From Herbidospora galbida (GTDB taxonomy: Bacteria > Actinomycetota > Actinomycetes > Streptosporangiales > Streptosporangiaceae): a stretch of 64,000 nucleotides of DNA. The DNA is taken from NCBI RefSeq assembly GCF_005233835.1, contig NZ_SZQA01000025.1, positions 62,001-126,000 of the forward strand, written 5' to 3'. Positions 29,537 to 52,418 of this stretch are shown piece after piece (the first letter of the stretch is position 1; every line of letters begins with the position of its first letter). Under the pieces are notes generated by a model. That model worked only from the letters and a program-made list of their open reading frames with translations. It searched no databases and was not told the origin of the DNA. Both the position numbers and the translations under genes were made by a program.

Positions 29537-29560
29537 CCGGTTTCGACCGGTACGCATTTT
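29536..29560 (+). terminator. Small hairpin after fumC
   Basis: ACCGGT-TTCG-ACCGGT, a 6-bp stem with a TTCG tetraloop, begins within the stop codon and is followed by ACGCATTTT. Probable weak intrinsic terminator at the left border of the defence island. Confidence 0.5.
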
Positions 29561-29663
29561 CTACCGGGCCTTCCTGGTCGCGGAGGCCACCCGGCTCTGG
29601 GCTCACCGCCCAGGGGCGATCTCTACCCGATCGCGTCGAACCGCAGCCGACTACGGAAGCGCT

Positions 29664-30836
29664 TCAGGATCCGGCCTCGGACAGGTAGTCATGAAGCTCC
29701 CCGGCGATCGCCCTCGCGAGACCCACGGGCACAGCATTGCCGATCTGGCGGGCGATCTGCACCTTCGTACCGACCCAGCGGTAATCGAGCGGGAAGCCCT
29801 GTAACAACGCGGCTTCCAGGTGCGTGATCGGACGGTCCGCCTTCGGGTGCAGGTAGCGCCCCTTCTCCGGCTTGTAGAACTCGGTCCGGATGGTCACGGA
29901 CGGCCGGTCCCACCACAGCCTGCCCATGACGTCCCCGGAACCGCTGCGGTGTCTGATCCAGTTCTCGGTCGAGAGTTCGTCCGGAAGCGAGTGCCGGTTG
30001 CCCCCCTCGGGGATGGCCCGGTAACGACGAAGAGAGTGGGGTGTCGGGTTACGGCCTATGTGCAGTTCGACGGTCCGGAAGCTGCCGGGCAGCTCCTTCC
30101 CGAGAAAGTCGCATCTGCGATCCGGGAGTTCGGTGGTCTCCGTCTCCGGCGGTGTCGTGCTGAAAACAACGCTTGAGGGCAACCATGACTCCATCGGAGC
30201 GAAAAGCGTGCCATCATCGCCCTTTTTGTCGGGCTTTCGATGCGTCGCCGCAGGGTGTCCCAGAGGCATGCGAGACGGATGGGAAGCGATCACATCCCGG
30301 TGCGTGGCCAGGACGATCACGCGTCTGCGGGTCTGGGGAACCCCGTAGTCGGCGGCGTTGAGCAGTTTGGTCCGCAGAACGTAGTCGCGCAGCTCGCCCT
30401 CGCGGGTCGAGGCGTCGAGGAGCTCGAACTCCCGCGACTTGAGGAACCGATCGACATTCTCAATGACGAACACCTTGGGCTGCAACGCGCGGACGACCCG
30501 CACGTATTCGGTCCACAGTTTGTTGCGCGGATCGTTGGGATCTTCCTTGCCCAGGCCGGAGAACCCCTGGCAGGGCGGGCCGCCGAGAATCACCTCCACC
30601 TCGGATCCGAGGCCGGCGGGATCCCACTCGGCGATGTCTCCCGCGTAGACGTGGTCGGATCCGCCGGCCTCCGCGGCGAAGTTCGCCGCATACGTGGAAG
30701 CGGCTGCGACGTCCAGTTCGACTGCCCCGACCGTTCGGAAATGCCCCCTCTCGAGTGAATGAAAGCCCTGGGTCAGTCCGCCACACCCCGCGAAGAGGTC
30801 AACGATGCGTATGGGGTTGGTGGAAGTGGCGGTCAT
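29664..30836 (-). CDS. DNA (cytosine-5) methyltransferase, catalytically intact
   Basis: Methyltransferase of 390 residues that would add a methyl group to C5 of cytosine in a specific site. Motif I is DLFAGCGG (13-20), motif IV GGPPCQGFSG with catalytic Cys89, motif VI ENV (126-128), motif VIII GVPQTRRRV, and motifs IX/X LLQGFP and QIGNAVP. The target-recognition region lies between VIII and IX. Start at ATG 30836, 10 bp after the stop of the second methyltransferase. It is the last gene of the leftward operon and probably marks self DNA. The recognition site cannot be read from sequence. Confidence 0.93.
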   Translation of the reverse strand: MTATSTNPIRIVDLFAGCGGLTQGFHSLERGHFRTVGAVELDVAAASTYAANFAAEAGGSDHVYAGDIAEWDPAGLGSEVEVILGGPPCQGFSGLGKEDPNDPRNKLWTEYVRVVRALQPKVFVIENVDRFLKSREFELLDASTREGELRDYVLRTKLLNAADYGVPQTRRRVIVLATHRDVIASHPSRMPLGHPAATHRKPDKKGDDGTLFAPMESWLPSSVVFSTTPPETETTELPDRRCDFLGKELPGSFRTVELHIGRNPTPHSLRRYRAIPEGGNRHSLPDELSTENWIRHRSGSGDVMGRLWWDRPSVTIRTEFYKPEKGRYLHPKADRPITHLEAALLQGFPLDYRWVGTKVQIARQIGNAVPVGLARAIAGELHDYLSEAGS

Positions 30837-30846
30837 GGGCGTCACC

Positions 30847-31824
30847 TTATCGAGAGCCGGGCGCCAGTGCCTTCGCGATCTGGTGACCAACGGCCTCCGC
30901 CAGTGGGGGCGGGACGGCTTGGGCGACCTGCTTGTAGCGGGCGGTCTTCTTTCCCGTCACGATCCAGTCGGCGGGGAACCCCTGCAGGGTCATCACCTGA
31001 CCGACCGTCAATTTGGGCACGCCATCCCGGCCGAGCCCGGGATCCAGCACGAAATCCCGGTCGGGCACGTCGTCGCCGAGGCTGTGGGCGTTCACGGCCA
31101 GTTCCATCCACTGGCGTTTGGTGCGGGTCGGGCCGAGATCCGCGCCACCGTGCTTCTTCGAGCCGCCCACGATCGTGGGGGCGACCCGATTGGCGAGAGC
31201 GGCCCAGGCATCCACGTCGCGCCAGCCGTTCGCGGCCATCGAGTCGCGCAGGACCTCCCCCACCGTCGCGGCGACGGAGGCGGTGGGTTCGGGCCATGAA
31301 AAGTGATCGAAGTCATCGGCCCGCATCGCGACCAACAGACAGCTTCGCCGGGTTTGGGGCACACCGTAGTCCTGCGCGTCCAGAACCTTCCACTGCCAGG
31401 AGTACTCGAGGTGTTTGAGCTCGGCTTCGACGTCCGCGCGGACGTTGACGAACTTGGGCGCCAATAAGGACGGGGTGGTCTCCAAGAGGATCGCCCGGGG
31501 CTGCAGCTCGATCGCTAGACAGATCGCGGCGACCAGCAGATCCCGTTCATCCCGTGGGCCGTCCTGCTTACCGGCGATGGAATAGGGCGTGGACGGCAGG
31601 CCGCCGGACAGAAGATCAACGGTGCGGAGCCCGAAGTCGGCTCCCACGAACTCCTTGAAGTCGATCTCCAGCACGTCCCACTCCGGGCGGTTCGCCCGGA
31701 GGGTCCGGCACGCGTGTGGATCATTGTCGATGGCGATGACTGGGTCGAACCCGGCCCTTTCCAGTCCGAGCGCCTGTCCTCCGACGCCGGCGCCCATCTC
31801 GAGTCCAGTGAATCGCCGTTCCAT
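30847..31824 (-). CDS. DNA (cytosine-5) methyltransferase homologue lacking the catalytic Cys
   Basis: Protein of 325 residues with the C5-methyltransferase fold: motif I GLEMGAGVGG, motif VIII GVPQTRRS, motif IX/X LQGFPADW and QAVPPPLAEAVG. Motif IV reads GGLPSTPYS, so the catalytic Pro-Cys is Pro77-Ser78 (codon TCC). Motif VI keeps Glu115 but reads ETT instead of ENV. Methyl transfer by the usual mechanism is therefore unlikely. It may bind SAM and DNA as a partner or specificity subunit of the active enzyme encoded just downstream. The ATG at 31824 follows GGAAGG; the upstream extension lies inside the neighbouring gene region. Confidence 0.85.
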   Translation of the reverse strand: MERRFTGLEMGAGVGGQALGLERAGFDPVIAIDNDPHACRTLRANRPEWDVLEIDFKEFVGADFGLRTVDLLSGGLPSTPYSIAGKQDGPRDERDLLVAAICLAIELQPRAILLETTPSLLAPKFVNVRADVEAELKHLEYSWQWKVLDAQDYGVPQTRRSCLLVAMRADDFDHFSWPEPTASVAATVGEVLRDSMAANGWRDVDAWAALANRVAPTIVGGSKKHGGADLGPTRTKRQWMELAVNAHSLGDDVPDRDFVLDPGLGRDGVPKLTVGQVMTLQGFPADWIVTGKKTARYKQVAQAVPPPLAEAVGHQIAKALAPGSR

Positions 31825-31855
31825 GGGTGAACCCCTTCCGCGGTACCGTCCCGAA

Positions 31856-32683
31856 CTAGTCGGGGGTTTCCCTTCCGGCCGGAATTTCCGTGTAGAGCTG
31901 CTTGAACAGGGTCGACAGGACGTCCACCGAAGCCGGCCTCGCCCGTCCGTCGGCGGGGCCGGACGGGAGCGTGTCGTAGGGAACCAACTCTCCCGCCAGT
32001 TCCTCGATCCAATCGCGGTAGGCGTCACCGTCTCGTGCGGCATCAGGCGCGAGGGCTTCGTAGGACAGTGTTCCGCCCGCGGTGTTCACGGCCCCGGCCA
32101 ACGCGTTCACCTGACGCCCGGTTCGGATCACGTTCGTGGCGAGCAATCTTATGATCGCCTGGGCGGTGGGTCGGTGCAGGATCATTTCGAGCCGCAACAC
32201 CGTGTTCATGACATCTTGGTTCGCGCAGGCCACCGCGACCGGGCCGTAGTCGGGTCCGTCGCGGAACAGCTCGGCCGCCCACCACAGGCGGGCGAAGGCC
32301 TGCGAGTAGAAGGGACCCGAGAACCTGGTTCGGGAAACCGTCGGCGGATTGCCTCGGCTCATGTGGCGCCAGTAGACGTACTCGGGCGCCAACCCGATCG
32401 CCAGATAGTTCCAGAGACCGGGATCGGAGGCCTCACGCCGAGTCAGTCGAAGGGTGGCGTGCAGCACCGGCGCCAGCCAGGCGTCGGCCGACGTCCGCTC
32501 GGCCGGCGTATGGCGCTTCATGGCCTCATCGAAGAGTTGGCGTACGGGCTCGGCCTCCCGTTGGGTCGTCTCCGAGATCTTGTCGATCGCGGCGCGGGGC
32601 AGCGGCTCGCTGTTCTCCAGCACACCCGTGGTGAGGAACTTCGCGGCGGCCGCGTCCGGCAGCGATCCCAGTGTGGCGTTCAC
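31856..32683 (-). CDS. Uncharacterised defence-operon protein (DUF6339-like)
   Basis: Protein of 275 residues, mostly helical, with no membrane segment and no nuclease motif that I can see. The stretch LWNYLAIGLAPEYVYWRH followed by FARLWWAAELFRDG is reminiscent of DUF6339 proteins, which have no known function. Its ATG overlaps the preceding stop (ATGA). Its position in a restriction-modification operon suggests a structural or recognition subunit, which is inference. Confidence 0.6.
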   Translation of the reverse strand: MNATLGSLPDAAAAKFLTTGVLENSEPLPRAAIDKISETTQREAEPVRQLFDEAMKRHTPAERTSADAWLAPVLHATLRLTRREASDPGLWNYLAIGLAPEYVYWRHMSRGNPPTVSRTRFSGPFYSQAFARLWWAAELFRDGPDYGPVAVACANQDVMNTVLRLEMILHRPTAQAIIRLLATNVIRTGRQVNALAGAVNTAGGTLSYEALAPDAARDGDAYRDWIEELAGELVPYDTLPSGPADGRARPASVDVLSTLFKQLYTEIPAGRETPD

Positions 32684-33612
32684 TCGTCCTCCGGTCCGAC
32701 CTTACGCAGGGAGCGGATGAAGCCGCCCAGGCTCCGTGGCATGCGCGCCTGCTTCGCCGCGGCATGGAGCACGCGGGCCTGGATGGCTCCGGTGCCACCG
32801 TTGACGATCTCATGCAGCGCGTCATCCGGAGAGTAGTCGGGGAAGATGTCGGGCAACATCCGGCGGAGCACCTGTCCCCGCCATCCTTCGGGCCAATCAT
32901 GGCCTTCGACGTGGTAGACCGCCTCGTTGAAGAGGGTGCTCCACAGATCGACGGCGATCTGCGCCGCCAGCGCCTCGCGCGTCGCGCGGTCGGCGGCAGT
33001 GGGGCTCTCCAGCACGGCGCGCAGGCCATCGAAGCCACTGTTGAGGACCAGCGTGGCCGTCTCGTCGGTAGTCGTGACGGTCCACGGGTCGGTCTTGCAC
33101 CACGAGAACCGGGAGTCTTCGGCGAAGTTGGCCCACTGGGTGTCGATGGACTCCCGATGGGCCGTCGTTCCCGGTCGCAGATCCACCGTCCAGGGCCGAT
33201 TGACGGTCGCGATCACTCTGCCGGGCACGCCGTCGACCGTCGCGACGAGCTGTCCGGAGACCTGTACGCGGCCGACATGATCATCTCGATGGATTTCCAC
33301 CTCCCCGGTCCACTCACCGGGCTGGCCCATCATGAGCTTGACCGCCGAGTGAGCGTTCGTACGGCGCTCGGACGCTGTCGCGAGGAACGAGAGACTCAAC
33401 CAGGGCCCCGCGTCCAACTCGTATCGCTGGGCCCGGACCTGCACCCCCAACCGGATGACCTCCCAGTCATCGCGCTCCAACGGACGCGGGACGACCGTGC
33501 GATCCTGTTCGGAGATCACCGAGTAGGGGAGCTGCACGTCGTCGAGACGCGCTTCCCGGATGGTCATCGTGACCTCGCCGGTCAACACCGGGTAGGGCAT
33601 GATCCGCTTCAT
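32680..33612 (-). CDS. Uncharacterised defence-operon protein, 310 residues
   Basis: Not recognised. The N-terminal 200 residues look beta-rich (alternating strands such as YELDAGPWLSLSFLA and VQVSGQLVATVDG). The C-terminal 110 residues are helical and basic (FIRSLRKV near the end). The single Cys and scattered acidic residues give no clear active site. It overlaps both neighbours by 4 bp (ATGA), so it is made in step with the XRE-GHKL ATPase and the DUF6339-like protein, and the three may form a complex. Confidence 0.55.
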   Translation of the reverse strand: MKRIMPYPVLTGEVTMTIREARLDDVQLPYSVISEQDRTVVPRPLERDDWEVIRLGVQVRAQRYELDAGPWLSLSFLATASERRTNAHSAVKLMMGQPGEWTGEVEIHRDDHVGRVQVSGQLVATVDGVPGRVIATVNRPWTVDLRPGTTAHRESIDTQWANFAEDSRFSWCKTDPWTVTTTDETATLVLNSGFDGLRAVLESPTAADRATREALAAQIAVDLWSTLFNEAVYHVEGHDWPEGWRGQVLRRMLPDIFPDYSPDDALHEIVNGGTGAIQARVLHAAAKQARMPRSLGGFIRSLRKVGPEDE

Positions 33613-35717
33613 CGGCCGCCCTCCTTGGCCCTGATGAGATCCACTTCGACGATCGTCATGCGACCGGCCACCGGATGGCTCGCCACATCACTCACGCCGG
33701 TGAACACGGCGGAGCGCTCGCGGGGCGCACAGCTCAGGATGTCGCCGTTGACATCGCAGTTCGACTCGGCGACCAACTCGGCCCATCGGCCCTCGGGTTT
33801 GGGGCCGGAACGCGTGGCGAATCGCAGCACTGGCCGGAGCACCCAGGGGTCGTCTCGTTCCGGCAACTTGATCTCGACCCTGATCCGCCACGCGCCGGTC
33901 TCATCGACGTCTCCGGTCGCGCTCTTGACCGTCGGGTAGCCACGTGTGCGGGCAGGGGGCGTGGGTTCCAAATCGACGATGTCGCGCAAGATGGTGGGGG
34001 TCCCCCCGGACTCAACGCTCTCGGCCGGTTTCACCGTTGCCCGGACCAGGGCGAACGCGGTCTGCCGAAACTCCCGCAGCCGCGTCGCCGCGCCCCGGGC
34101 ATAGGTGGCGACCAGGTCTTCCGTGGCCTTCCAGTCGTTGTGCTCTGGCGGTTCCGCGGCGCGGAGGAACGCCTCGGCCGACGTGTCGGCCGGCAGCTTC
34201 CTGTCACCGACGATCCCGGCCAACAGAACGGCCTGGAACGGCGTCGAACCGAGGGAGAGCGCCGTGACGGGCCGATTCACCACGGTCATTCGGGTGCCGC
34301 GCATGCCGACCAGGCGATTGGGCTTCGGATCGCCCTCGACCGCCGGTGTGACCAGGAGTACGGCGGTGTGCTCCACCGGAGCCTGGCCCTTTTCCGACTT
34401 CCGGGGCGGCACGGTCAAGGGAACAGCCAGTTCGACGACGTCATCGGACTTGGTGAGCCGGGAGACCGTCGTCCCGTCGAGGAACGCCCGGATAGCCCGC
34501 GCCCTCCCCGGTTCGTATCGATAGGGGTCGACCCGCTCTTCGGCCACCACGACCTGCCCGTCGCACAACGCTTCGACCGACGCTTCGAGCATCGGCGGCT
34601 TGCCGTCGCCGGCGACCATGGAGGCCCAGAAGTTCGTCGCCAGGCCCCGGACGAGCGCGCCGTGCATTTCTTCAAGCGAGTTCGCTTCGCCCGATGGGTC
34701 GTGGGCGCCGACGATGAGGAAGCTCGTTCCCGGGTCGCCGCTGGCTCGGCGGAGGTAGAGCTCGTCGAGGGCGCGTTCGCCCGCCCACCACGAACGCGCC
34801 GCGGTCTCCCGGCTCGGATCGCGGTTGCCCAGCCAGGCGGGACCGGCGTACTGCGCACCGTTGAGCTGGTGCCACGGCAGATCGATGCGACCGATCACCC
34901 GGCGCTCCCGCAGCCCTTCGTGAGGCTCGGAAAGGGTGCTGTTCACGATGACGAGGCCGAAGCGGCTGGCCCCCCAGATCGTCGCCTTGCCCAAGCCGAA
35001 CGAGCCGCCGGCCGTTCCGAGTTTGTGGCTGTCGAGCTGGCGACGCACGACTGCGGCGAACCGCCCGTCGTCGTAATCGTCTCCCGTCAGGCCATTCGCG
35101 TTGTAGTCGTCGATCCGCAGGAGCAACAACTTGCCGGTTTCCTGGAGCTCCCGCAGACCTTCGGCCAGTTTCCGGCCGACCTTCTGCTTGCCGACCTTCT
35201 CATTGGGATCGCTCGCCGCCTCGATGTGCGGGGCGAGTTCGTCCCACCGGATCGCCTCCTGAAGGCGGCGAAGACGCTCGCCGCTGATCTCGTGCAGGAT
35301 GAACCGCACCCGGACCGGACGCGTCGGATCGTGGCATTCGTCCAAGCTATTCTGGGTCGCCTCGCGCGCGGTGATCTCCAGAGAGGAGTCGAACGCGAAG
35401 GCGGCGGCGTTCCCCAGTTCCCTCCCGCCGTCGCGGTGGGCCTCGCGGTGATGCCAGGCGATGTAGCCGCTGGACTCGGGCGTCTCATCCCTGGTTGCCG
35501 AGGCTCCGGCGGCCAGGTTGAGGAACTCTTCGATCGCCTGGATCTTGTCGACCCGGGGGGTCGCCCTCCCGGTGATCCAGGCCGACACCGCCGCCCTGGT
35601 CACATCCAGGGCGGCGGCGAGCTCCGACTGGCTCACGCCCTTGCGGCGCAACTGCCTGCCGAGCCAGGGACCGAAGGCTTCGGGGTCCGGGGGGAGGTGG
35701 TCACCGTCCAACGTCAT
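33609..35717 (-). CDS. XRE helix-turn-helix fused to GHKL (MORC/MutL/Hsp90-type) ATPase
   Basis: Protein of 702 residues. Residues 17-68 form an XRE-type helix-turn-helix (KGVSQSELAAALDVTRAAVS). A GHKL ATP-binding domain follows: N-box REATQNSLDE (118-127), G1 box IDDYNANGLTG (202-212) and G2 box GGSFGLGKATIW (237-248). The rest is a transducer-like and unknown region with GMRGTRMTVVNRP. GHKL proteins clamp or remodel DNA on ATP binding, and MutL/MORC relatives occur in restriction-modification operons. The HTH could make it its own regulator or guide it to DNA. The ATG at 35717 has CGGAG upstream; first gene of the leftward operon, with an inverted repeat 34 bp before it. Confidence 0.8.
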   Translation of the reverse strand: MTLDGDHLPPDPEAFGPWLGRQLRRKGVSQSELAAALDVTRAAVSAWITGRATPRVDKIQAIEEFLNLAAGASATRDETPESSGYIAWHHREAHRDGGRELGNAAAFAFDSSLEITAREATQNSLDECHDPTRPVRVRFILHEISGERLRRLQEAIRWDELAPHIEAASDPNEKVGKQKVGRKLAEGLRELQETGKLLLLRIDDYNANGLTGDDYDDGRFAAVVRRQLDSHKLGTAGGSFGLGKATIWGASRFGLVIVNSTLSEPHEGLRERRVIGRIDLPWHQLNGAQYAGPAWLGNRDPSRETAARSWWAGERALDELYLRRASGDPGTSFLIVGAHDPSGEANSLEEMHGALVRGLATNFWASMVAGDGKPPMLEASVEALCDGQVVVAEERVDPYRYEPGRARAIRAFLDGTTVSRLTKSDDVVELAVPLTVPPRKSEKGQAPVEHTAVLLVTPAVEGDPKPNRLVGMRGTRMTVVNRPVTALSLGSTPFQAVLLAGIVGDRKLPADTSAEAFLRAAEPPEHNDWKATEDLVATYARGAATRLREFRQTAFALVRATVKPAESVESGGTPTILRDIVDLEPTPPARTRGYPTVKSATGDVDETGAWRIRVEIKLPERDDPWVLRPVLRFATRSGPKPEGRWAELVAESNCDVNGDILSCAPRERSAVFTGVSDVASHPVAGRMTIVEVDLIRAKEGGR

Positions 35718-36151
35718 CGGCGGGTCGCTCCGTGGGTCTGATCGAGCACTGTTTGACAGCCAGGCTAGCGTCAAACGAAAGTTGACACCACCCGGCGGAG
35801 CTTGTCCTATGAGGCGAGCGCATCACCAGCCTCGAAAGGCTGATAGATGTACGCATAATGCATTTTTGTGCCACAAGTCCTATTTTCGTCCCTCTTGCGC
35901 GAAGCATCAGGCTTATGCAAGCATCAACGCACTCGCCAAAGCGGGTCGACGCACAATGACTTTCCCAGGGGTGGGGTTTACCCAAACCCGTTCACTCCAC
36001 CGGACCGCACTACTGGTATAGAGCCCCCTTTGGGGTGCCCGGGCAAGGGCTGCGAACACGCGCCACCGGGGTCACCTTCGGCATTCCCAAATCGGCCCCA
36101 TACCCGCGCCCCACCTTTCCAATTGGCTTTTCCATTGCGGGAGATAGTGCC
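35718..36151. other. Divergent promoter region of the defence operons
   Basis: This 434-bp gap separates the two main defence operons and is visibly more AT-rich than the genome. It holds the inverted repeat at 35751-35776, a further GTTGACA at 35781, and a small GGGTTT/AAACCC hairpin (35974-35989). A TGGTATAGAG at about 36013 may be a -10 for the rightward operon. No convincing gene is present. Confidence 0.6.
35751..35776 (-). promoter_or_regulatory. Inverted repeat upstream of the XRE-GHKL gene
   Basis: Perfect arms GTTTGAC and GTCAAAC are separated by 12 bp that contain a second small dyad (AGCC-A-GGCT). It sits 34-59 bp before the start codon and overlaps a possible -35 (TTGACG on the minus strand). 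It is a plausible operator for the HTH domain of the downstream protein. Confidence 0.5.
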
Positions 36152-39100
36152 GTGAACAGCGAAGATGCCTCTGTTATCGAGGTAATCCTCGAACAGACGA
36201 TGCGCGTGCTCGAAACCTACAGAATCGACCCCGGCCTCATCCAGGAACACGCGAACGGCGAGCGTCGCATCAAGGAAGGCGGGTACGGCGACCGCCAGAT
36301 CTATGAACTCGTCCAGAACGGTGCCGACGAGCTGAGAAACGAGCCCGGCGGGGAAATCGCGGTCGTGCTCACGGACACCCACCTTTATTGCGCGAACCAG
36401 GGGACCGCCATGTCCCCCGCGGGCGCCGACACCATTCTGCGCATGGGGGTCTCCCGCAAGCGCGGCGGCCAGATCGGCCGGTTCGGTGTGGGGGTGAAGT
36501 CTGTCCTCAGCGTCACCGATGTGCCCGAGTTCTTCAGCAAGGAGGACGACAAGAGCTTCGGGTTCGACCGGGAGTGGGCCGAGATGGAGATCCGGCGCGT
36601 GCGGCCGGACACGGTCGAGACCCCCGTGCTCCGGATGGCCCGCCCACTCGACCGTGACCGGGCCATGGCCGCCGACCCGATCCTCGCCGAGCTGCTGACC
36701 TGGGCGACGACGGTGGTCCGCCTCCCACTCAAGCCCGCCGCCGTGCCGGATCTGGTCAAGGACATCGACGAGTTCCCCGCCGAGTTCACGTTGTTCTCAC
36801 CCCACGTAGGCACGATCACCCTGGAGAAGAGGCTGTCGGGCCGGGTCTCCCGACGGCAGATCTTCCAGCACCTCGACGGCGACCGCCGGACGCTCCAGCG
36901 GGTCGTCTCCGTCAACGGCGGCGACGAGCGCGATGAGACCGAGGAGTGGCGGGTCTTCACCCGTGTCCATCGTCCGTCCGCCCGGGCGCTGACCGAGGCC
37001 GGCGAACTGCACGACCGGCCCGAGATCGATATCTCGTGGGCGGTGCCGCACTCCGAGGGGCGGGCCGCCGGGCGTGGCCAGTTCTGGGCGTACTTTCCGA
37101 CGAACTACGAGCTGACGCTGCGCGGCATCGTCAACGCACCTTGGAAGACCAGCGAGGATCGGCAGAACCTCTACGCCGGCAACCAGTTCAACGAGGAACT
37201 CATCGACCAGGTCGCGGACCTGGTGGTCTCGTCCCTACCCGCGCTGTCCCAGCCGGACGACCCCTGCTCCTACCTTGACTTCGTGCCCGCCCGTGGGCGG
37301 GAAGAGCCGCAGTGGGCCGCCAAGAAGCTCGTCAAGAGGGTCTGGGAGATCGCGGCCGGACGATCTGTCTTCCCCGACCAGAACGGTCGGTTCGACACCC
37401 CCGCCCGGATCCGTGTGCACCCGGATGGCCTCCAGCAGGAATGGCTCGACTGGTGGGCGGGATATTCGGGTCGGCCGGTCGAGTGGATCCATCACTCCGC
37501 CGACTCGGGCAGGAACAAGCACCGTCGTGACAGCGTCAAGCACATTCTGTCCAATGCGGTCATCCCCATCGCCACCGTCAAGGAATGGCTGGAGGCGCTC
37601 GTCTCCGACGGCAGCGCCGAGGCGTCGTCGCGGGCCGTGCTGATCGCCGCGAGCATGAAGGGCCACCCGTTCTTCGAGGAGGCGTCGCGGGCCAGGATCG
37701 TACTCATCGAGGGGGGCGGCATGGTCGCCCCCTCCTCCCGGGTCTTCCGCCGCTCCAAGGCCGACAGGCTGGCAGACAACACGGTCTACGTGGACGAACG
37801 CGTCTACGAGGGCAACGACATCATCGCGCGGGCGTTGGAAACGCTCAATATTCACGAGGCCAACCACCGGGGCAGGTTCGCCTCCGTGGTGGAGCGCGGC
37901 TTCCAGGGCTACAACACGCGTGACTGGACCGCGTTCTGGGACTTGGCGCGGCTCGCGGGTCCCGAGGGCGTCCGCTCGGCTTTCCGGGGAAAAGAGATCG
38001 ACACCGCCAAGGAGCTGAAGGTCAAAACGCTGGCCGGAGATTTCCGGCGAATCCGCGACTGTCTGCTCCCCGGTCCGGTGGTGCCCGCCGACGGTTCGAG
38101 AGACGCCGGCATCGCTGTGGACCTGGACTTCCACTCGAACGATCGCGCGTATCTCGCCGAGTTGGGGCTTCTCTCGGGCCCCATCCTCAACGTCAGCCCG
38201 GGGGACGAGGAATGGTTCCAGGCCTATAAAAAGGCCTATTGGGAACTTTACCTCGACAAACTGCCGAAAGCGGAAGCCCGCCCGTCGCTGGCCAAGATGC
38301 ACTTCGACGGCACCAACCCGGCAGGGCCCCTGCATCTGTTCATCTCACTGTCGAAAGAGGGTAGGGCGGCTTTCCTCAAGGCCATTCCCTCGGGCGGCGC
38401 GGTGACCCAGTGGACCATGCAGCCGGGGAACAAGGGCCTCTCGAGTAGGGTCTCGGTTTCATCTCCGATCAAGTGGCTCTCTCTTCGGTACGGCCACCTC
38501 CGCACCTCCCGCGGCCTCCTCAAGATCGGAGACTGCGTCTCCCCGGAACTGTCCGAGTACCGCGACGTGCTTCCGGTCGCCGACGTGTCCACCGGTGTGG
38601 CGTCGATGCTCAACCTGCCTTCGTCCCTGGGCGACTTGCGTCAGCCCATGTGGGACAAGTTGGTCGCCGAGGCTTCGGCGTCAACCGACGACCGCTTCCC
38701 CGGCCGCGTCTACGCCCTGATGTTCGAGGTGGAGGCGGACTTCCCCGAAGGCGCCATGACCCGGTGCCGCGTCGGCGACGAATGGCGCAGTGACGTCCCC
38801 GACACGGAGATCGCGGTCACCCACCTTCGCACCGAGTACGACGCCCTGCTGAAGGAGCGGGTGCCGGCGCTGCTCGTCCCGACCGACTCCCTCGCGCGGA
38901 CGATGCGGGAGGCGTGGCACATGCTCTCCCCCGCCGAAGCGATCCAGACCGAATACCGCCACGTCGAAGTGGCCGATCCGGTGCCGCTCATCGAGGAGTT
39001 CCCGTACCTCAAGACACTTCGGCGCGCCCAGGTGGAAGGATGGTCCACCATCCGGTGCGAAGAGGTCGAGGAGATCACCCGAACACCCGGCGGCATGCGC

Positions 39101-45700: not shown

Positions 45701-45913
45701 CTCGACGAGCTCATCGCCGACTGGATCACACTCGCCGACGAGAACGACAAGCTGGTCTATCAGGCCAAAGCCCGATTCAAGCGCAGCGAGAGGCGAAACC
45801 CCCACGAGGCGCTGCTGCGGTCATTCACCGACGACGACCTCGATTATGCCTGGGACACCCTCTGGAGCCTGCGCGACGTCGACGCCGAGTCCGACCTTTA
45901 CCTGGAGCGATGA
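42692..45913 (+). CDS. drmA: DISARM helicase DrmA
   Basis: Helicase-like protein of 1073 residues. The diagnostic motif LWFPTGGGKTEAYLG (about 450) is followed by a four-Cys zinc element (RFCPWCGTPM to CANGDCAF, about 564-600). Next come the DrmA Walker B QDELHLISGPLGSLTG (about 652), STATIRRAK and motif VI SSRVGREHPG (about 882). DrmA and DrmB form the core DISARM complex, which binds DNA ends or unmodified DNA and blocks phage. The ATG at 42692 is preceded by GGGGGAA. The usual DrmA N-terminal region of beta structure is present. Confidence 0.9.
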   Translation: MPNHSEHYAFRSALAEQLRLDAIGPVGGPEEILKDSPVTTYAAGVLYPRRRDTVEVADEIGERDGDLAPETRVREDPPDTGVSLANDQAPSSMGLTFGVDPTVSPTITVTATAAMYAPFDTAGRPVRAQRAERRTTEEQDLRWHRRSLDLAPYHVDVLSPRQHTVELGPGLELRVRVRPVKDRAVSVTVALLNVTEVEKFDIRDASCVFQPEIRVSGAEGTLPFVERRVPVGADESEMRTNRLLYRYAPNFAVGHGCAADWDWTPPAPRDEALLRMEPAAVGEIRSEFVPAKEVLLTDSNPDIDNSALRMIDLAKGSDEEILTALRALVSGYRAWIAERAEESRLLGDVDFAEAAREQVRQCNTACARMDAGITTLRDNPMVMRAFRLANEAMANQRAQTGWIRNGRAGAPDNREGRWRPFQIAFLLLCLNGIDDPEHDDRGIADLLWFPTGGGKTEAYLGIIAFTVFLRRLRKGEEGGGVTAIMRYTLRLLTLQQFERAAALICAMEIIRSGNPRELGKETISIGMWVGAAATPNKLKDAAASLEKLRSGKELHKEDPVQLRFCPWCGTPMGPDEYVVDVAASNMRIFCANGDCAFHHELPVYVVDEKIYAVRPTLIIATVDKFAQIAWKPEVAALFNRDRPGTAPPELIVQDELHLISGPLGSLTGLYETAIDEAAERPKIVASTATIRRAKDQVKRLFNREVAQFPPAGLDARDSWFAVETPAKDKASRLYVGLLAPNTSQATLLVRAYGALLHHATHIEGEDSVRDAYWTLVGYFNSLRLLAAAELQVLDDVQDRLKVLAERHGITVRPRDHLTELTSRVKSSEIPKRLKDLERRHPDPEVFDAVLATNMISVGVDVSRLGLMAITGQPQTTAEYIQSSSRVGREHPGLVVMLYNANRSRDRSHYESFVSYHSALYRQVESTSVTPFSPRARDRALHAVLVGMARLLQPELRFNHAAASVLAHEHRIEELKDLIVARARAALEKDGTVDEVELAGVEKDLDELIADWITLADENDKLVYQAKARFKRSERRNPHEALLRSFTDDDLDYAWDTLWSLRDVDAESDLYLER

Positions 45914-45914
45914 A

Positions 45915-47792
45915 ATGGCACTTCGTGGCGGAAAAAACCAGCGGGCGGGTCGGACCGGTGAGGCGGAGACGACCAAAAAGCCCCTGGGCGCCGTTCGGCG
46001 CGCCCAGACGATCACGACCTACGGCGTGGGCTCAATGATCGCTATTGAGGATCAGTCATACATCGTGAGCGGGCTCGACAGCTGGCGCGTATGGCCCTCG
46101 GACGAGATCTTCGAACCCCGCCTCCAGAGATGGCTCGGTGTCGAGAGGTTCCAGCTCCCGCCGGCCGACGAGCCCTCTTCTGGAGACGGCATCCGGACGC
46201 GACGCTTTCCCGAGTGGTACTCGTGCGGCGACTGCGGCAGCCTCCGCGAGTTCCGGGATTTCGATTCCTCCACCGGTACGGCCAAATGCGACACCTGCGA
46301 AAAGACGCTGACCCCGTCGCGGTTCGTGATCGCCTGTGAGAATGGCCACCTGGACGACTTTCCCTACTTCGCGTGGCTGCACAAGAAGAACGCTGCCGGC
46401 TCCGCGGACACCTCCGGTGGTCACCGGCTCTCGTTGGAGAGCAGCGGTCAGACCGCATCGCTCAGGTCCATCGTCATCAAGTGCTCCTGCGGTGTGCGTC
46501 CCGCGTCGCTGGAGGGCGCTTTCGACAAAGGCGCGATGCCCGACCTGGGCATCAAGTGTCGGGCGAAACGGCCGTGGCTCGGCCGTGGCGCCGCGGAGAC
46601 GTCCTGCGACGCCGCGCCCCGGACGCTCCAGCGAGGCGCATCGGCGGCCTGGTTCGGAATCACCCGGTCCGCGCTGGCCATTCCCCCGTGGTCGGAGACC
46701 CTTCAGCAACGGCTGAACCGCGCCTATCCGGCCCTGCGCCGACGAGTCGAGCGAGGAGATCGGGAAGAGGACCTGCTCGAGGACATCGAGGCCGATTCGA
46801 CACTGACCGACAACGGACGCTTCACTCCGGAGGCGATCTTGGCGGCGGTCCGTCGGCGAATGGAGTTGCTGGACTCCGCACCACTGCCCGACCCCGACGA
46901 GACTCTGATCTTCGAATCGGCAAGCACGCTGCGCCGTGAGGAGTACGCCCAGCTCTACGACGGCACCGGCACCGTGTCCCGCGAAGAGAACTTCGAGTGC
47001 GTTCGGGCCGGAGACGACCTCATCCCGCTTCCTTTCGGGATCAAGCGTTCCATGCTGGTCAAGCGGCTGCGCGAAGTGCGGGCACTGGAGTCGTTCACGC
47101 GGGTCACCATGCCCGACCCGGTGGGTGGCGACACGCGCAGGGCGGCGATGGCCGGCACTCCACCGAAGTGGCTACCCGCGATCGAGGTCAGCGGCGAGGG
47201 TGTATTCCTGGCGGTGGACGAGGAGCGACTCCAGACATGGGAAAGACGGGAAGGCCCGAGGGACCGTGCCCGTCAGATAAGGCTCCGGCACACCGCGAAT
47301 CTTCGCGAACGCGCCGAAAAGGCCCGCCCTTCGAAGCCGACCGGCGAAATCACCTCACCCGTCACTCCTCGATACGTGTTTCTGCACACGCTCGCGCACG
47401 TGTTGATAAACGAGTGGAGCCTGGACTGCGGCTATCCGGCGGCCGCGCTGCGCGAGCGGCTCTATGTGGACAAGGACATGGCGGGCATTCTCATCTACAC
47501 CGCCACCAGCGACTCGGCCGGCTCCCTCGGGGGTGTGGTGGCCCAGGGTGAGCATCGCGCGCTCCATACCTCTCTCGAGGCGGCACTCGCCCGTACCGAG
47601 TGGTGTTCGCAGGACCCGCCTTGCATGGAAGCGGAGGCCGCCGGCATCGACAGTCTCAACCTGGCCGCCTGCTACGCCTGCGTGCTGCTGCCGGAGACGA
47701 GTTGCGAGACCAACAACGTCTTTCTCGACCGGGCGATGCTCATCGGAACACCGGACGACCCCCTGACCGGCTTCTTCAACGAAGCCCACTGA
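45915..47792 (+). CDS. drmB: DISARM protein DrmB (DUF1998)
   Basis: Protein of 625 residues. It begins with the DrmB signature VRRAQTITTYGVGSMI (about 28-43). Zinc-binding pairs SCGDCGS and KCDTCEK (about 101-128) are followed by IACENGHLDDFPYFAW. Near the C-terminus is the DUF1998 motif LHTLAHVLINEWSLDCGYP and a Cys cluster (CSQDPPC, CYACVLLPETSC). DrmB partners DrmA, and the C-terminal DUF1998 resembles the zinc module of MrfA-type helicases. It starts one base after the drmA stop. Confidence 0.9.
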   Translation: MALRGGKNQRAGRTGEAETTKKPLGAVRRAQTITTYGVGSMIAIEDQSYIVSGLDSWRVWPSDEIFEPRLQRWLGVERFQLPPADEPSSGDGIRTRRFPEWYSCGDCGSLREFRDFDSSTGTAKCDTCEKTLTPSRFVIACENGHLDDFPYFAWLHKKNAAGSADTSGGHRLSLESSGQTASLRSIVIKCSCGVRPASLEGAFDKGAMPDLGIKCRAKRPWLGRGAAETSCDAAPRTLQRGASAAWFGITRSALAIPPWSETLQQRLNRAYPALRRRVERGDREEDLLEDIEADSTLTDNGRFTPEAILAAVRRRMELLDSAPLPDPDETLIFESASTLRREEYAQLYDGTGTVSREENFECVRAGDDLIPLPFGIKRSMLVKRLREVRALESFTRVTMPDPVGGDTRRAAMAGTPPKWLPAIEVSGEGVFLAVDEERLQTWERREGPRDRARQIRLRHTANLRERAEKARPSKPTGEITSPVTPRYVFLHTLAHVLINEWSLDCGYPAAALRERLYVDKDMAGILIYTATSDSAGSLGGVVAQGEHRALHTSLEAALARTEWCSQDPPCMEAEAAGIDSLNLAACYACVLLPETSCETNNVFLDRAMLIGTPDDPLTGFFNEAH

Positions 47793-47817
47793 TCCATACG
47801 AACGCGGGAGGTAAACG

Positions 47818-49914
47818 GTGCCACGCCTGGCCATCCACCAGGATTTCCTGCGAGACCTGATCCGGCTGGAACGCCCCGTCGCCCAGAAAGTTCTCGACAC
47901 CCTCGGCAAGTTCGGACAGACGGCGCACGCCGGAGCACATCTGGAGAAACTTCAGGATATTCGTGACCCGAGATTCAAGAGCATCAGAATCGACCGACAG
48001 TACCGCGGAATCGTGCTGGTTCCGGATTCCGGCGACCTTTTGACGCTCCTGCACGTGGACACCCACGACGAGGCGTACGCCTGGGTGCGCAACCGTCGGG
48101 TCTCCGTGAACATGGCAACCGGGCACATGGAGATCCGCGATGACGCGATCATCGCGGAGACGATGGACGGCCTGACACGTACGCCCGAGACCACTGTGGA
48201 CAAGCTCTTCGACCACGTCTCCGACGGGGAACTCACGCGACTTGGCATCGACGAGCAGATGCTGCGATTCGCCCGGATGCTCACTGACGTCGGGATGCTG
48301 GAGGCACTGGACGGCAAACTTCCCCAAACCCAGTTCGACGTGCTGTTCGGACTGGCGGCGGGGATGTCTCCCGAGGAGGTCTGGACCGACCTCGTGGGGT
48401 CGGTGGACGTGCCGGACATCGACCCCGGAGACGTGTCCGCCGCCACCGAGCGCACCCTTCACAAGGTCGCGCTGGTGGACGGCCCGGAAGAGCTGATGGA
48501 ACTGTTCGCCAAGCCCTTCGACCGGTGGCGCGTCTACCTGCACCCGGTCCAGCGTGAGGTGGCCTTCCGATCCTACGCCGGGTCGATCCAGGTCACCGGC
48601 GGCCCGGGCACCGGCAAGACCGTGGTCGCCCTGCATCGGGCCCGCCACCTCGCGCGCCGGGGCGGCCGTGTGCTGCTGACCACCTTCACTGCCACACTCA
48701 CCAGGTCGTTGTCGGAATGGCTGCGGCTGTTGGAGACGGACGAGGAGGTGCTCTCACGGATCGACGTGCTGACCGTCGACCAGGTGGCGCGCAAGTTGGT
48801 CAACGACCATGTCGGTTCTTTCGCCCTGCTGGGCAACGAGGAGGAGAAACAGATCTGGCGGCGGATCCGGCGGCGTCGGGACCTGGACCTACCGGAAAAG
48901 TTCCTCCAGGAGGAGTGGAGGCAGGTGGTTCTCGCCCAGGAGATCGGCACGCTGGATGACTACCTCAAAGCCCGTCGGGTTGGGCGCGGGCGGCGACTCG
49001 GTTCCCTGCAACGTACGAAGATCTGGCGGGCCGTCACCGAATTCGAACAGGAACTGGCCGAGCGCCGCTATCGCACGTTCGAAACGATCTGCAGGGAAGC
49101 GACGCGGGTGCTCGGCGGGCTCGCCACCTTCCCTTACGACCACGTGATCGTGGACGAGGCCCAGGATCTCCATCCGGTGCGGTGGCGGGTCCTGCGGGCG
49201 GCAGTCCCGGAAGGTCCCGACGATCTGTTTATCACCGCCGACACACACCAACGCATCTACGACAACCGGGTCTCCCTGGCCGCGGTCGGGATCCGGCTCG
49301 GCGGCAGGTCGACCACGCTGCGGATCAACTACCGCACCACCGGCGAGATTCTCACCTGGAGTTGCGCCATGTTGGCGGACGAAAAGATCGACGACCTCGA
49401 CGGCAGGCGAACCGATCTGGCGGGTTGCCGCTCCGAGATGCGGGGCAGCGAGCCCGAGATGTTCGGGGCGGCGACCCGCCACGCCGAACTTGCCCGGCTC
49501 GTCGAAACGGTCAACGGATGGATCGATGCCGGGGTCCGCCCCGAGGAGATCGGCGTGGCCGCCCGGTCGGAAACCCTCGGGCAGTCGGCGGCGGAGGCCC
49601 TGGCGCTGGCGGGAATCGGAGCTCTGTTCCTGTCCCGCGACCGGGACGGCACGACCGACCACGTCTCGGTCACCACGATGCACCGCATGAAGGGGCTGGA
49701 GTTCCGCTGCGTCGCGGTGATCGGCGTGAGCGCAGGTCAAATCCCCGCCGACAACGCCGTCACCCCGTTGACGGAGGACGCCACCACGCACCGGAACGAC
49801 CTCCAGCGCGAACGGTGTCTGCTCTTCGTCGCCGGCACCCGGGCCCGCGAGCGTCTGCACATCTCTTGGCACGGAGAGCCGAGCCCGTTCCTCAAGTTAT
49901 CCAGTGGCCGATGA
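47818..49914 (+). CDS. RelE-fold domain fused to UvrD-type helicase
   Basis: Protein of 698 residues. Residues 1-95 look like the ParE/RelE toxin fold (IHQDFLRDLIRLER, IRIDRQYRGIVLVPDS, HVDTHDEAYAWVRNRR). The rest is an SF1 helicase: GGPGTGKT (about 261-268), VDEAQDLHP (about 445), NYRTTGE, HRMKGLEFR (about 622) and AGTRARERL (about 672). RelE-UvrD fusions are known as single genes in many bacteria, but their role is unclear. The GTG at 47818 has GGGAGGT upstream. Its last 23 bp overlap the convergent kinase gene. Confidence 0.85.
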   Translation: MPRLAIHQDFLRDLIRLERPVAQKVLDTLGKFGQTAHAGAHLEKLQDIRDPRFKSIRIDRQYRGIVLVPDSGDLLTLLHVDTHDEAYAWVRNRRVSVNMATGHMEIRDDAIIAETMDGLTRTPETTVDKLFDHVSDGELTRLGIDEQMLRFARMLTDVGMLEALDGKLPQTQFDVLFGLAAGMSPEEVWTDLVGSVDVPDIDPGDVSAATERTLHKVALVDGPEELMELFAKPFDRWRVYLHPVQREVAFRSYAGSIQVTGGPGTGKTVVALHRARHLARRGGRVLLTTFTATLTRSLSEWLRLLETDEEVLSRIDVLTVDQVARKLVNDHVGSFALLGNEEEKQIWRRIRRRRDLDLPEKFLQEEWRQVVLAQEIGTLDDYLKARRVGRGRRLGSLQRTKIWRAVTEFEQELAERRYRTFETICREATRVLGGLATFPYDHVIVDEAQDLHPVRWRVLRAAVPEGPDDLFITADTHQRIYDNRVSLAAVGIRLGGRSTTLRINYRTTGEILTWSCAMLADEKIDDLDGRRTDLAGCRSEMRGSEPEMFGAATRHAELARLVETVNGWIDAGVRPEEIGVAARSETLGQSAAEALALAGIGALFLSRDRDGTTDHVSVTTMHRMKGLEFRCVAVIGVSAGQIPADNAVTPLTEDATTHRNDLQRERCLLFVAGTRARERLHISWHGEPSPFLKLSSGR

Positions 49915-51856
49915 TGGCCGCGACCTCCTGATCCGAGATCGCGGCCAACCCGATCTGTCCGGGTTGGCCGCCATGGACCGAGAACAGGCCGGTCCCCGTG
50001 CGCAGTGTTTCGGCTCCGGCGCGGTCGATGACCGCAATGCTCTCTTCGACGGATGTCAACGGAAGGGCGAGCCGCGCGGGGAAGTAGCCCTTCACCCGGG
50101 AAACGTCGGCGTGCTCCGATGGTCTCCCCATGCGGGCCACGACGTGGAAGCCGACCGCCCGCCCTTCCATGGTCAGTTCGACGACCGAGTCGGGGGACAC
50201 GTCGTCGATTTCGTCGATGACGACGACCACGTCGGGGTGTGCCAGGTCGGAGTCTCCGAGCGCGCCGGCGGGAACCGGCCCACCCGTCTCCCGCACCCTG
50301 TCGTTGAGCTGCGCGGTCGTTCGGCACCCGTGGGCCCTCAGGTCGTCGTAGCGGCAGGCGACCTCGGCGACCGCCCAGGTGAGCGGGTCTCCATCGGCCT
50401 GCCTGACCACATGAGGAAGGGTGGCGAACGGACTTCCGGGGGCGGCGAACACCAGCCGCAGGTCATGGGGCGAATGGCGCATCGCGAATGACGCGACAAT
50501 GACACGGAGCGGGTCGACCTGGCCGCCCCTGCCACCGATGAGCAGATGCGGTGTGTCCGCCGGCTCAAAAAAGACAGCCGTACCATCTGCGGCGCGGCCC
50601 AGTCCGGCCAACTGTGCGTGCGCATCGGGAGCCTCGCGCAGGATGTCACCGAGGCCGAGCGCGTCGGGGACCCGGTGCGGCACCTCGACACCGATCGCGG
50701 GCACGCCCGGCAGCGGGGATGTCGACCGCCGCATCGGCAGGGCCCGGAGGCCATCCTGGCCCGTCACCCGGACGAACTCTCCAACCAGGGCCATGACCGC
50801 GTTCTCGTGGACGTTGGGGCCCAGCCTGACCTCGAATCGGGTGAGCTGGGGAGTACGGACGTAGTCGGCCACCCTGGCGTCGATCCGGGACCGTCGCAGC
50901 ACCTGGTCGATCGCTCTGGCCATTGCTTCGTCGACGTCGGAGTGCAGTCGCTCGGACGCACCGGACCGCAGAAGCCGATCATCGGGGAGCAGAACCGTCG
51001 CCTTGGCGGGCCCCGGGTCGGTCTGGTGGATCGCCCGGAGCCGGGTCGTCACTTCATCGGCCGACTGCGGCCGATCCTCCGGTTTCTTGGCCAAGAGGTC
51101 GAGGATCAGCTCTTCCAGCAACGAGGGAACGTCCCCACGGAAGTCTCCCGGACGCGGAGGCTGCTTCGTCGCGTGCTTGTACAGCACTTCCATCGCGCCC
51201 CCTTCGAAGGGGCGGTCGCCCGTCGTCATCTCGTATAACACACAGCCGAGCGAGTACAGGTCGCTCCGCTCGTCGGGTCTGCCCTCGTTCTGTTCGGGGG
51301 CCGTGTAGGCCGGAGTGCCGATCGGGGCGGTCGCCCCGCCCGCATCGAGGACTTTGGCGATGCCGAAGTCAAGGAGCTTCGGCCGGTCTCCGGGGAGAAG
51401 CATGATGTTGGCGGGCTTGATGTCGCGGTGGATGACCTTCTTCGCGTGGGCGGCCGCGAGGGCGTCGGCCAGCCCGATCCCGATGCGGATGATCCGGTCG
51501 AAGGGGAGACCATTCCTCGCGTCGTCCATGACTGCCCTCAGATCCCGGCCGTCCAGCATCTCCATGACGAAGAAGAGCCGTCCTTCGTCGTCGTTGGCGT
51601 CGTGGACGACGACAACCCCCGGGTGCTGAATCTGACCGCAGAGTTGGGCCTCGGCACGGAACCTCGCCGCGCGGCGGGTGTCGACACTCGAGTGCTCGGG
51701 GAAAACCTTCACCGCCACATCTCGGTTGAGCCGCGTGTCGATGCCGTGCCACACCTCGCCCATGGCCCCGGCACCCAGCTTCCTGTCCAGACGGTAGCGA
51801 CCGACCAATGTGACACCGCCGAGCACGTCAGCCCTCCCTCGTCGTGACCGTGTCAT
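49892..51856 (-). CDS. Ser/Thr protein kinase fused to a degenerate FtsK/SpoIIIE-like motor domain
   Basis: Protein of 654 residues. A complete Hanks-type kinase comes first: GAGAMGEV (28-35), Lys50, HRDIKPAN (143-150), DFG (163-165), GTPAYTAPEQ (180-189). Residues about 338-654 follow FtsK: TRFEVRLGP, PGVPAIGVEVPH, HLLIGG, HSPHDLRLV, VACRYDDLRAHG, VVVVIDEIDD and a terminal EVAAIIGHW. The Walker A site (GATGSGKS in FtsK) reads GGRGGQVDP, without the Lys, whereas Walker B Asp-Glu (548-549) is kept. It probably cannot pump DNA alone. No membrane helix is seen. ATG 51856 follows AAGCGGGA; GTG 51913 would add 19 residues. Confidence 0.82.
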   Translation of the reverse strand: MTRSRRGRADVLGGVTLVGRYRLDRKLGAGAMGEVWHGIDTRLNRDVAVKVFPEHSSVDTRRAARFRAEAQLCGQIQHPGVVVVHDANDDEGRLFFVMEMLDGRDLRAVMDDARNGLPFDRIIRIGIGLADALAAAHAKKVIHRDIKPANIMLLPGDRPKLLDFGIAKVLDAGGATAPIGTPAYTAPEQNEGRPDERSDLYSLGCVLYEMTTGDRPFEGGAMEVLYKHATKQPPRPGDFRGDVPSLLEELILDLLAKKPEDRPQSADEVTTRLRAIHQTDPGPAKATVLLPDDRLLRSGASERLHSDVDEAMARAIDQVLRRSRIDARVADYVRTPQLTRFEVRLGPNVHENAVMALVGEFVRVTGQDGLRALPMRRSTSPLPGVPAIGVEVPHRVPDALGLGDILREAPDAHAQLAGLGRAADGTAVFFEPADTPHLLIGGRGGQVDPLRVIVASFAMRHSPHDLRLVFAAPGSPFATLPHVVRQADGDPLTWAVAEVACRYDDLRAHGCRTTAQLNDRVRETGGPVPAGALGDSDLAHPDVVVVIDEIDDVSPDSVVELTMEGRAVGFHVVARMGRPSEHADVSRVKGYFPARLALPLTSVEESIAVIDRAGAETLRTGTGLFSVHGGQPGQIGLAAISDQEVAAIIGHWIT

Positions 51857-51980
51857 CGTCCCGCTTGATGATCGAATATCACCGGACGGTCCGGACCCAC
51901 GTCTATCGGTCACGTTACAATGAAGGGCAAGAAAGCGATTCTTCCGAGATCAACCAATCGTTCGGATATCGTCGACGATC

Positions 51981-52415
51981 ATGGTGGCCACCGGACCCGT
52001 TCCTCGCGACGCAGGGGTGTCACGCCGGATGCGCTCACAGCGCGAATTCGACACCGGCATTGAAGTCGAGTTGCGCAAACTTCTGTGGGCACGCGGCCTT
52101 CGCTATCGGATTCACGCGCAGGTCATCCCGGGCACCCGCCGGAAGGTCGATCTCGTCTTTCCGGGGGCCAAGGTCGCCGTCTTCGTCGACGGCTGCTTCT
52201 GGCACGGATGCCCCCGGCACTACACGGCCCCGGCGAACAACAACGATTGGTGGCTCAAGAAGATCCGGACCAACCGGACGCGGGACATCAACAGCTTCCG
52301 AAGGCTCCGGTCCATCGACTGGAGAGTCATTCGGGTGTGGGGCCATCAGGATCTCGAAGCGGCCGCAGACAAGATCGAAGCGATCGTCCGCGCCCGCCGG
52401 GCCACCACCCAATGA
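51981..52415 (+). CDS. vsr: Very short patch repair (Vsr) endonuclease
   Basis: Endonuclease of up to 144 residues that nicks next to T:G mismatches arising from deaminated 5-methylcytosine. Family features: an N-terminal R-M-R-S-Q-R stretch, GLRYRIHAQVIPGTRRKVDLVF with the catalytic Asp, AVFVDGCFWHGCP and the helical WWLKKIRTNRTRD. It is a normal companion of C5-methyltransferases, supporting real 5mC methylation by the island. Alternative start: GTG 52017, which matches usual Vsr N-termini better. It is divergent from the kinase gene and ends three bases from the ROK stop. Confidence 0.9.
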   Translation: MVATGPVPRDAGVSRRMRSQREFDTGIEVELRKLLWARGLRYRIHAQVIPGTRRKVDLVFPGAKVAVFVDGCFWHGCPRHYTAPANNNDWWLKKIRTNRTRDINSFRRLRSIDWRVIRVWGHQDLEAAADKIEAIVRARRATTQ

Positions 52416-52418
52416 TCC

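Follow-up and report, generated by a model that had tools for sequence, protein, structure and literature searches.

Twelve adjacent genes at positions 29664 to 52415 of a 64,000-nucleotide stretch of Herbidospora galbida (contig NZ_SZQA01000025.1, positions 62,001 to 126,000; hereafter the window) form what looks like a new, so far unnamed DISARM-like variant of soil actinobacteria. A preliminary description made from the sequence alone had listed these genes; all twelve are present and open at these positions, and their recurrence in other genomes shows that the set is more than a chance assembly. Several gene starts are probably internal to the called open reading frames (ORFs), as judged from the ORF data and from homologues. 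An Rfam search at gathering thresholds gave nothing useful for the locus.

The core comprises four plus-strand genes. The first (36152..40840) joins a sacsin-type GHKL part to a RadD-like superfamily 2 (SF2) helicase, as indicated by the NCBIfam model P_loop_sacsin and by profile matches to the sacsin structure (5e-7) and to RadD (1e-34); its start lies near 36152, and an alternative upstream GTG at 36035 is possible. Behind it stand a UvrD/GajB-like superfamily 1 (SF1) helicase, SF1a (40837..42708), whose C-terminal region found no family match in Pfam, then DrmA (42692..45913; NCBIfam DISARM_DrmAS at 1014.9 bits with a cut-off of 950; PDB entry 7s9v, DrmA, at 1.6e-173) and DrmB, of the MZB/DUF1998 type (45915..47792; NCBIfam DrmB_fam at 467.9 bits with a cut-off of 240; Pfam MZB). 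The DISARM core named in the preliminary description is thus borne out by curated cut-offs.

Three minus-strand genes, here called the trio, appear to form a control arm. They encode a fusion of an XRE helix-turn-helix (HTH) domain to a GHKL ATPase (33609..35717; Pfam HTH_3 at 1e-10; N-box-like and glycine motifs), which matches the PADLOC model PDC-M33A at 5e-22 over about 142 to 146 of its 627 profile positions, a 295-residue protein of no known family (32680..33567), and a DUF6339 protein (31856..32683; Pfam DUF6339 at 1e-11; PADLOC PDC-M33C). The DUF6339 protein is predicted to be all-helical, and its AlphaFold2 model (predicted local distance difference test, pLDDT, 87; predicted template modelling score, pTM, 0.85) found no match in a fold search of the PDB (best E 0.64). 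The 295-residue protein, with a predicted beta-rich N-terminal part and a helical C-terminal part, was modelled at pLDDT 87 and pTM 0.53; its fold search gave nothing convincing (best E 2e-3, to immunoglobulin-like folds), and neither did a PDB profile search and a family comparison. An inverted repeat, TTGAC-N12-GTCAA (35753..35774), is the predicted operator of the XRE-GHKL gene. Two C5-methyltransferase homologues are encoded on the same strand as the trio: M1 (29664..30836; Pfam DNA_methylase at 1e-60), which looks active and carries the motifs PPCQ, ENV, QTRRR and GNAVP, and M2 (30847..31824), in which PST replaces PCQ and the catalytic cysteine is gone. A Vsr-type nicking endonuclease gene (51981..52415, plus strand; Pfam Vsr at 2.5e-20; E. 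coli Vsr structure 1cw0 at 1e-16) stands at the other end of the locus.

Other loci were collected with the sacsin-helicase gene as the marker, and all frequencies given here are conditioned on it. Among 297 genomes of the window's family it was matched at 1e-30 in 40, and in 35 of the places found (the window's among them) the match is complete or almost complete in length. DrmA and DrmB lie behind the marker in all 34 of the other family loci and the SF1 helicase in 29; three of the five loci without an SF1a match (G100, G198 and G051) share another gene in that slot, for which Pfam shows a NERD domain in G100. A wider scan of one genome per species (84,980 species) yielded at least 352 candidates, and the best 80 of these gave 79 named loci, which by their titles place the marker in 20 actinobacterial genera, mostly Streptomyces. 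Within these 79, SF1a was found in 77, DrmA in 77, DrmB in 76, DUF6339 in 68, GHKL in 68, the 295-residue protein in 66 and Vsr in 56, and marker, core and trio occur together in 14 genera. A search for the marker in plasmids returned 11 records, none covering 80 per cent of it, and two of their neighbourhoods were examined.

Dropping nine duplicates between the two sets left 104 loci (34 from the family and 70 named), the core locus of G051 being omitted because it failed a single-alignment length filter. The core of marker, SF1a, DrmA and DrmB is complete in 95 of the 104. The exceptions are four loci without an SF1a match (G100, G216, G198 and G023), two that run off the edge of the stretch available (L188 and L207), one with no core match (L228), one in which SF1a is a DNA match and not one full ORF (L190), and one that is rearranged (L243). 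GHKL is present in 77 loci, DUF6339 in 76 and the 295-residue protein in 75; cysteine-less M2 (73) and Vsr (81) are counted as lower bounds, since the stretch seen per locus was limited. The methyltransferase motif GG-PPCQ is present in an ORF of 98 loci, including all 73 with cysteine-less M2. The core and all three trio genes stand together in 72 of the 104, so that the joining of a DrmAB core to a GHKL-type restriction-modification (R-M) arm, as proposed in the preliminary description, recurs as a unit.

The protein sequences carry a record of this shared history. When protein distances were rank-correlated with those of the marker, the values were 0.94 for DrmA, 0.89 for SF1a and 0.84 for DrmB, then 0.78 for GHKL, 0.78 for M2, 0.76 for the 295-residue protein and 0.65 for DUF6339, and they were lowest for Vsr (0.42) and the active methyltransferase (0.24); the largest value reached in 200 permutations was 0.20. 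Measured in this way, M2, the trio and the core share their evolutionary distances, whereas swapping has affected the active methyltransferase and Vsr. A phylogeny of DrmA places 96 of 100 marker-linked proteins in one clade with support 1.0, and the remaining four group with DrmA proteins that have no marker.

Of 147 methyltransferase rows that were aligned, 66 keep the motif IV cysteine and 81 have another residue there, which is arginine in 66 of them, serine in 14 and alanine in 1; the 81 rows count the window two times, as well as certain loci present in both sets, and they correspond to 73 loci after de-duplication. The window's M2 has a serine at the catalytic position of M.HhaI, which we take to be Cys81, although the HhaI entry used for the alignment is itself altered there. 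Loss of the cysteine goes with the trio: 18 of 19 trio-linked M2 proteins lack it (the exception being that of G158), and all 11 homologues from genomes without this GHKL retain it, the two groups together making up the best 30 places in the 297 genomes, ahead of 71 further listed matches. On this alignment M2 is a pseudo-methyltransferase that has lost its catalytic cysteine. It is conceivable that M2 methylates by means of another residue or chemistry, on RNA for example, and that the locus holds two working methyltransferases; the SAM-binding glycines of M2 are largely kept and the G158 protein has its cysteine, but with the residue replaced throughout those 73 loci and with motifs VIII and X drifting as well, we consider this highly improbable. 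Two C5-methyltransferase homologues are present as first described, only one of them with its catalytic cysteine, and the idea that both mark self is not supported for that reason.

The inverted repeat is conserved along with the GHKL gene. TTGAC-N10..16-GTCAA was found between GHKL and the marker in 62 of 74 loci, where 100 first-order resamplings gave a mean of 0.42 repeat-bearing loci and a maximum of 2. The spacer is 12 nucleotides in 48 of 64 repeat matches, and these 64 matches at GHKL starts compare with eight elsewhere in the same loci and three in loci without GHKL. In the window the copy at 35753–35774 directly precedes the XRE-GHKL gene and is the only match in 64 kb, which alone would mean little without the conservation, because 11 of 100 shuffled windows contain at least one match. 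As TTGAC resembles a –35 box, the repeat may overlap a promoter, and it is a candidate operator that the XRE-GHKL protein may bind.

We think it rather probable that the locus is one integrated actinobacterial DNA-defence system with exchangeable specificity, related to DISARM. Its principal competitor is an arrangement of two or three independent systems that are neighbors within a defence island, namely a DrmAB machine, a GHKL R-M operon (PDC-M33) and a kinase, and the position of the GHKL gene bears directly on the choice between them. GHKL occurs in 19 of the 297 family genomes (the window's own included) and lies beside the core on one contig in 17; the other two places are at a contig end in G223 and next to M2 and Vsr in G051, where the core is absent. 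In 75 of 77 GHKL loci it is divergent from the marker and within 3 kb upstream of it, at a GHKL identity to the window's that is mostly 45–80 per cent, and it is closely tied to cysteine-less M2 (both in 72 of the 104 loci, GHKL alone in 5, M2 alone in 1 and neither in 26). An order held over such divergence, the company of the core and the matched protein distances argue against independent neighbors, in whose favor stands a different R-M-like cassette at the same genomic site in G033.

Several results weigh against a single system. The arms are separable, as 27 of the 104 core loci lack GHKL (one of them, G223, at a contig break) and at the place G051:C62 the core is missing while the trio, M2 and Vsr are there, both of which count in favor of independent systems. 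In thirteen family loci without GHKL, a small gene from a different cluster takes that place or lies close to it, and for this gene Pfam gave a winged-helix match below cut-off and nothing else. Shared vertical descent would also make protein distances correlate; the swapped genes of the same loci, which serve as an internal control, argue that descent accounts for only part of the signal. The frequencies themselves are biased, since the loci were chosen by the marker, the named ones came from the 80 top-ranking of at least 352 candidates, and the scan favors close relatives. One M2, that of G158, keeps its cysteine. Finally, no dedicated nuclease besides Vsr was recognised among the proteins of the locus, and Vsr itself is found in 81 of the 104 loci, so that the killing step is a weak point of the single-system account. 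Taking both sides together, independent systems side by side are a possible but doubtful account of the locus as a whole.

The relationship to DISARM is close but partial. DISARM classes are distinguished by DrmD plus DrmMI, or by DrmE. The locus has both the DrmA helicase and a DrmB with DUF1998/MZB expected of a DISARM system, as separate genes by curated models, with a cytosine methylation gene nearby. DrmC (a phospholipase-D nuclease), DrmE and DrmMI were not among the PADLOC matches listed for the twelve proteins, and the only DrmD match among them is one of 16 bits within the SF2 helicase half of the marker protein, in agreement with the preliminary description, which had found drmC, drmD and drmE missing. 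For five of the proteins these matches comprise 25 families, and a weaker one could have escaped notice. Elsewhere in this genome the same PADLOC library does detect DrmD, DrmMI, DrmA, DrmB and DrmC, in a complete canonical class 1 DISARM (L152 2424–16307; G000:C24:29690–43573). Decay of a canonical DISARM was rejected as an origin of the present locus, given that full class 1 system and a DrmA here that belongs to another clade. What sets the locus apart is the addition of the sacsin–RadD helicase, an SF1 helicase, the GHKL trio and a cysteine-less M2, together with its own DrmA clade. M1 matches DrmMII models at 8e-45 and a DruM model better, at 7e-94. According to the accessible portion of one report, DISARM DrmAB is held closed by a trigger loop until it meets DNA bearing a 5' single-stranded end, unmethylated DNA stimulates its ATPase, and DrmC is apparently non-essential (PMC9142583); the absence of DrmC here is compatible with this.

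Other known systems overlap with parts of the locus. The MORC/paraMORC R-M operons described by Iyer et al. (2008), who propose DNA looping by the GHKL ATPases, likewise bring a GHKL ATPase, an SF2 helicase, a cytosine methylase and Vsr into one neighborhood, all of which are found here; DrmAB is not mentioned in the available part of that paper, and the likeness is one of gene content (PMC2292703). The PADLOC candidate PDC-M33 is matched by the GHKL protein (PDC-M33A) and the DUF6339 protein (PDC-M33C), but the former match is partial, no component beyond A and C was recognised in the locus, the 295-residue protein found no match in 42 members, and the models show no link to DrmAB. ARMADA type II differs in that the present locus has a split DrmA and DrmB and neither a BrxHII-like helicase nor a PglX-like methylase was recognised in it, and a RelE-like domain is unconfirmed here (comparison with the accessible text of PMC12458937). 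The XRE-GHKL protein resembles, by description, CapK, an HTH-GHKL protein that controls an immune operon and is reported to be activated by single-stranded DNA; CapK differs by its STAS domain and by its partner, CapS (available part of PMC13373217). Both M1 and M2 match DruM models of Druantia, but no DruE-type fused helicase was recognised. The N-terminal GHKL part of the marker matches models of TmtA, presumably of the system named Tiamat, but the match ends before the SF2 helicase half and at best covers profile positions 12–479 of 1538. No named system with this gene set was found in the literature searched, which was mostly open-access and judged mainly by titles and the beginnings of abstracts. 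The word undescribed, used in the preliminary description, has to be softened in view of the PDC-M33A and PDC-M33C models, the operons of Iyer et al. and, in the portion at hand, the many uncharacterised DISARM-like classes mentioned without detail in the preprint of Bell et al. (2025; PMC12458937).

Gene content, active-site states, co-inheritance and the repeat can be read directly from the genomes compared, and building on them we infer an anti-phage function for the integrated system and a mechanism that would run as follows. The active methyltransferase would mark host DNA at a target site that varies between lineages, and M2, no longer methylating, would be its fixed partner, either reading the site or coupling the methyltransferase to the machine. 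The XRE-GHKL protein may bind the repeat and repress its own operon, switching when its ATPase meets abnormal DNA. DrmAB would load, in the manner solved for DISARM, where unmethylated DNA offers a free single-stranded end, the sacsin–RadD and SF1 motors would clamp and unwind the DNA, and Vsr, or a nuclease encoded outside the locus, would destroy what has been unwound.

A bolder version, which we offer tentatively, is that the fixed component is the dead C5-methyltransferase and not the active one, and that it serves in recognition or licensing much as a bacterial DNMT3L would, joined to an ATP-driven XRE-GHKL switch that reads the state of the DNA and governs the operon to which it belongs. 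Vsr and the active methyltransferase would be swapped like cartridges, the attack would fall to a motor complex of DrmAB, the sacsin-helicase and SF1, and the whole would be a widespread actinobacterial immune machine. Should the account of one system prove right, antibiotic-producing actinobacteria would possess a branch of DISARM-like immunity that has no name as yet, and the locus would show how a defence core can keep its motors while exchanging its methylation specificity. It would also offer a conserved pseudo-methyltransferase together with a clear candidate operator, and be informative on the working of DISARM-like systems that have no DrmC.

The genomic setting is that of a variable insert of about 23 kb (29517..52450) at a hotspot between fumarase-like and ROK-family genes. 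Homology to relatives ends at about 29517–29538 and returns at about 52443–52450, nearly the limits of the twelve-gene block, and G+C is 0.65–0.68 in the inner 2-kb bins of the insert against 0.67–0.74 outside. When the flanking DNA was sought in six congeneric genomes, the flanks were found to join within a few bases in two (G149 and G109), leaving an empty site, and other cargo of 3.9 to 8.8 kb occupied the same site in the remaining four. This patchiness speaks to the question of whether the locus might serve DNA repair or chromosome maintenance and not defence. RadD, UvrD, MrfA/YprA and Vsr have roles in repair, and relatives of all of them are found here. Against such a role stand the presence of the marker in those 40 of 297 family genomes and its rarity across an evenly sampled phylum (matched at 1e-100 in 5 of 396 genomes, one of them the window's and another with a partial match), insertion at a variable site that is empty in two congeners, and an exchangeable methyltransferase, and we judge a repair locus very unlikely indeed. 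A minus-strand ORF of 487 residues beside the island was rejected as a gene, since relatives have a plus-strand gene there; that plus-strand flanking gene is one we take to be a fumarase from its signature. The cargo of G033 at the same site (L266), by reading of the sequence, encodes a helicase along with a C5-methyltransferase and a Vsr-like protein.

Two genes of the block fall outside the conserved set. One encodes a fusion of a Ser/Thr kinase to FtsK (49892..51856, minus strand; Pfam Pkinase at 1e-45, FtsK_alpha and FtsK_SpoIIIE; PADLOC PD-T4-6), the other a second, GajB-like SF1 helicase, SF1b (47818..49914, plus strand; Pfam UvrD), whose 110-residue N-terminal extension gave nothing in a PDB profile search or in Pfam, leaving a RelE-like nature unconfirmed. 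By tblastn, the kinase with its FtsK part was found in 12 of 35 family loci (the window's own included) and clearly in none of the 70 other named loci, with a short, weak kinase match at the end of the stretch of L179; SF1b was found in 9 of 35 and 4 of 70. A strict full-length filter gave 9 of 104 for the kinase and 12 of 104 for SF1b, and the tblastn recount is the fairer figure. The named loci with DrmB show a median of about 3 kb behind it, so that a more distant kinase would be missed. Judged by this distribution, kinase-FtsK and SF1b are add-ons of some lineages, and their inclusion among the general working parts in the preliminary description was not sustained; a core signalling role for the kinase was likewise rejected. 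Both distributions favor the idea of separate systems side by side, which for the kinase is the better reading.

Related arrangements were seen in several of the loci. L136, L145, L146 and L147 carry a gene like the NERD-helicase of G100, followed by DrmA and DrmB, without the sacsin-helicase, and may be a further DISARM-like arrangement. L148, possibly a decayed locus, has a DrmA fragment and DrmB with the second SF1 helicase and the kinase, again without the sacsin-helicase. A single Actinoplanes contig holds two nearby sacsin-helicase loci (L224 and L243) and has a distant GHKL (29 per cent identity) behind DrmB. Distant relatives of SF1b stand upstream of the marker in L217, L224 and L228, and the ORF in L224 begins, by reading, in a kinase-like manner.

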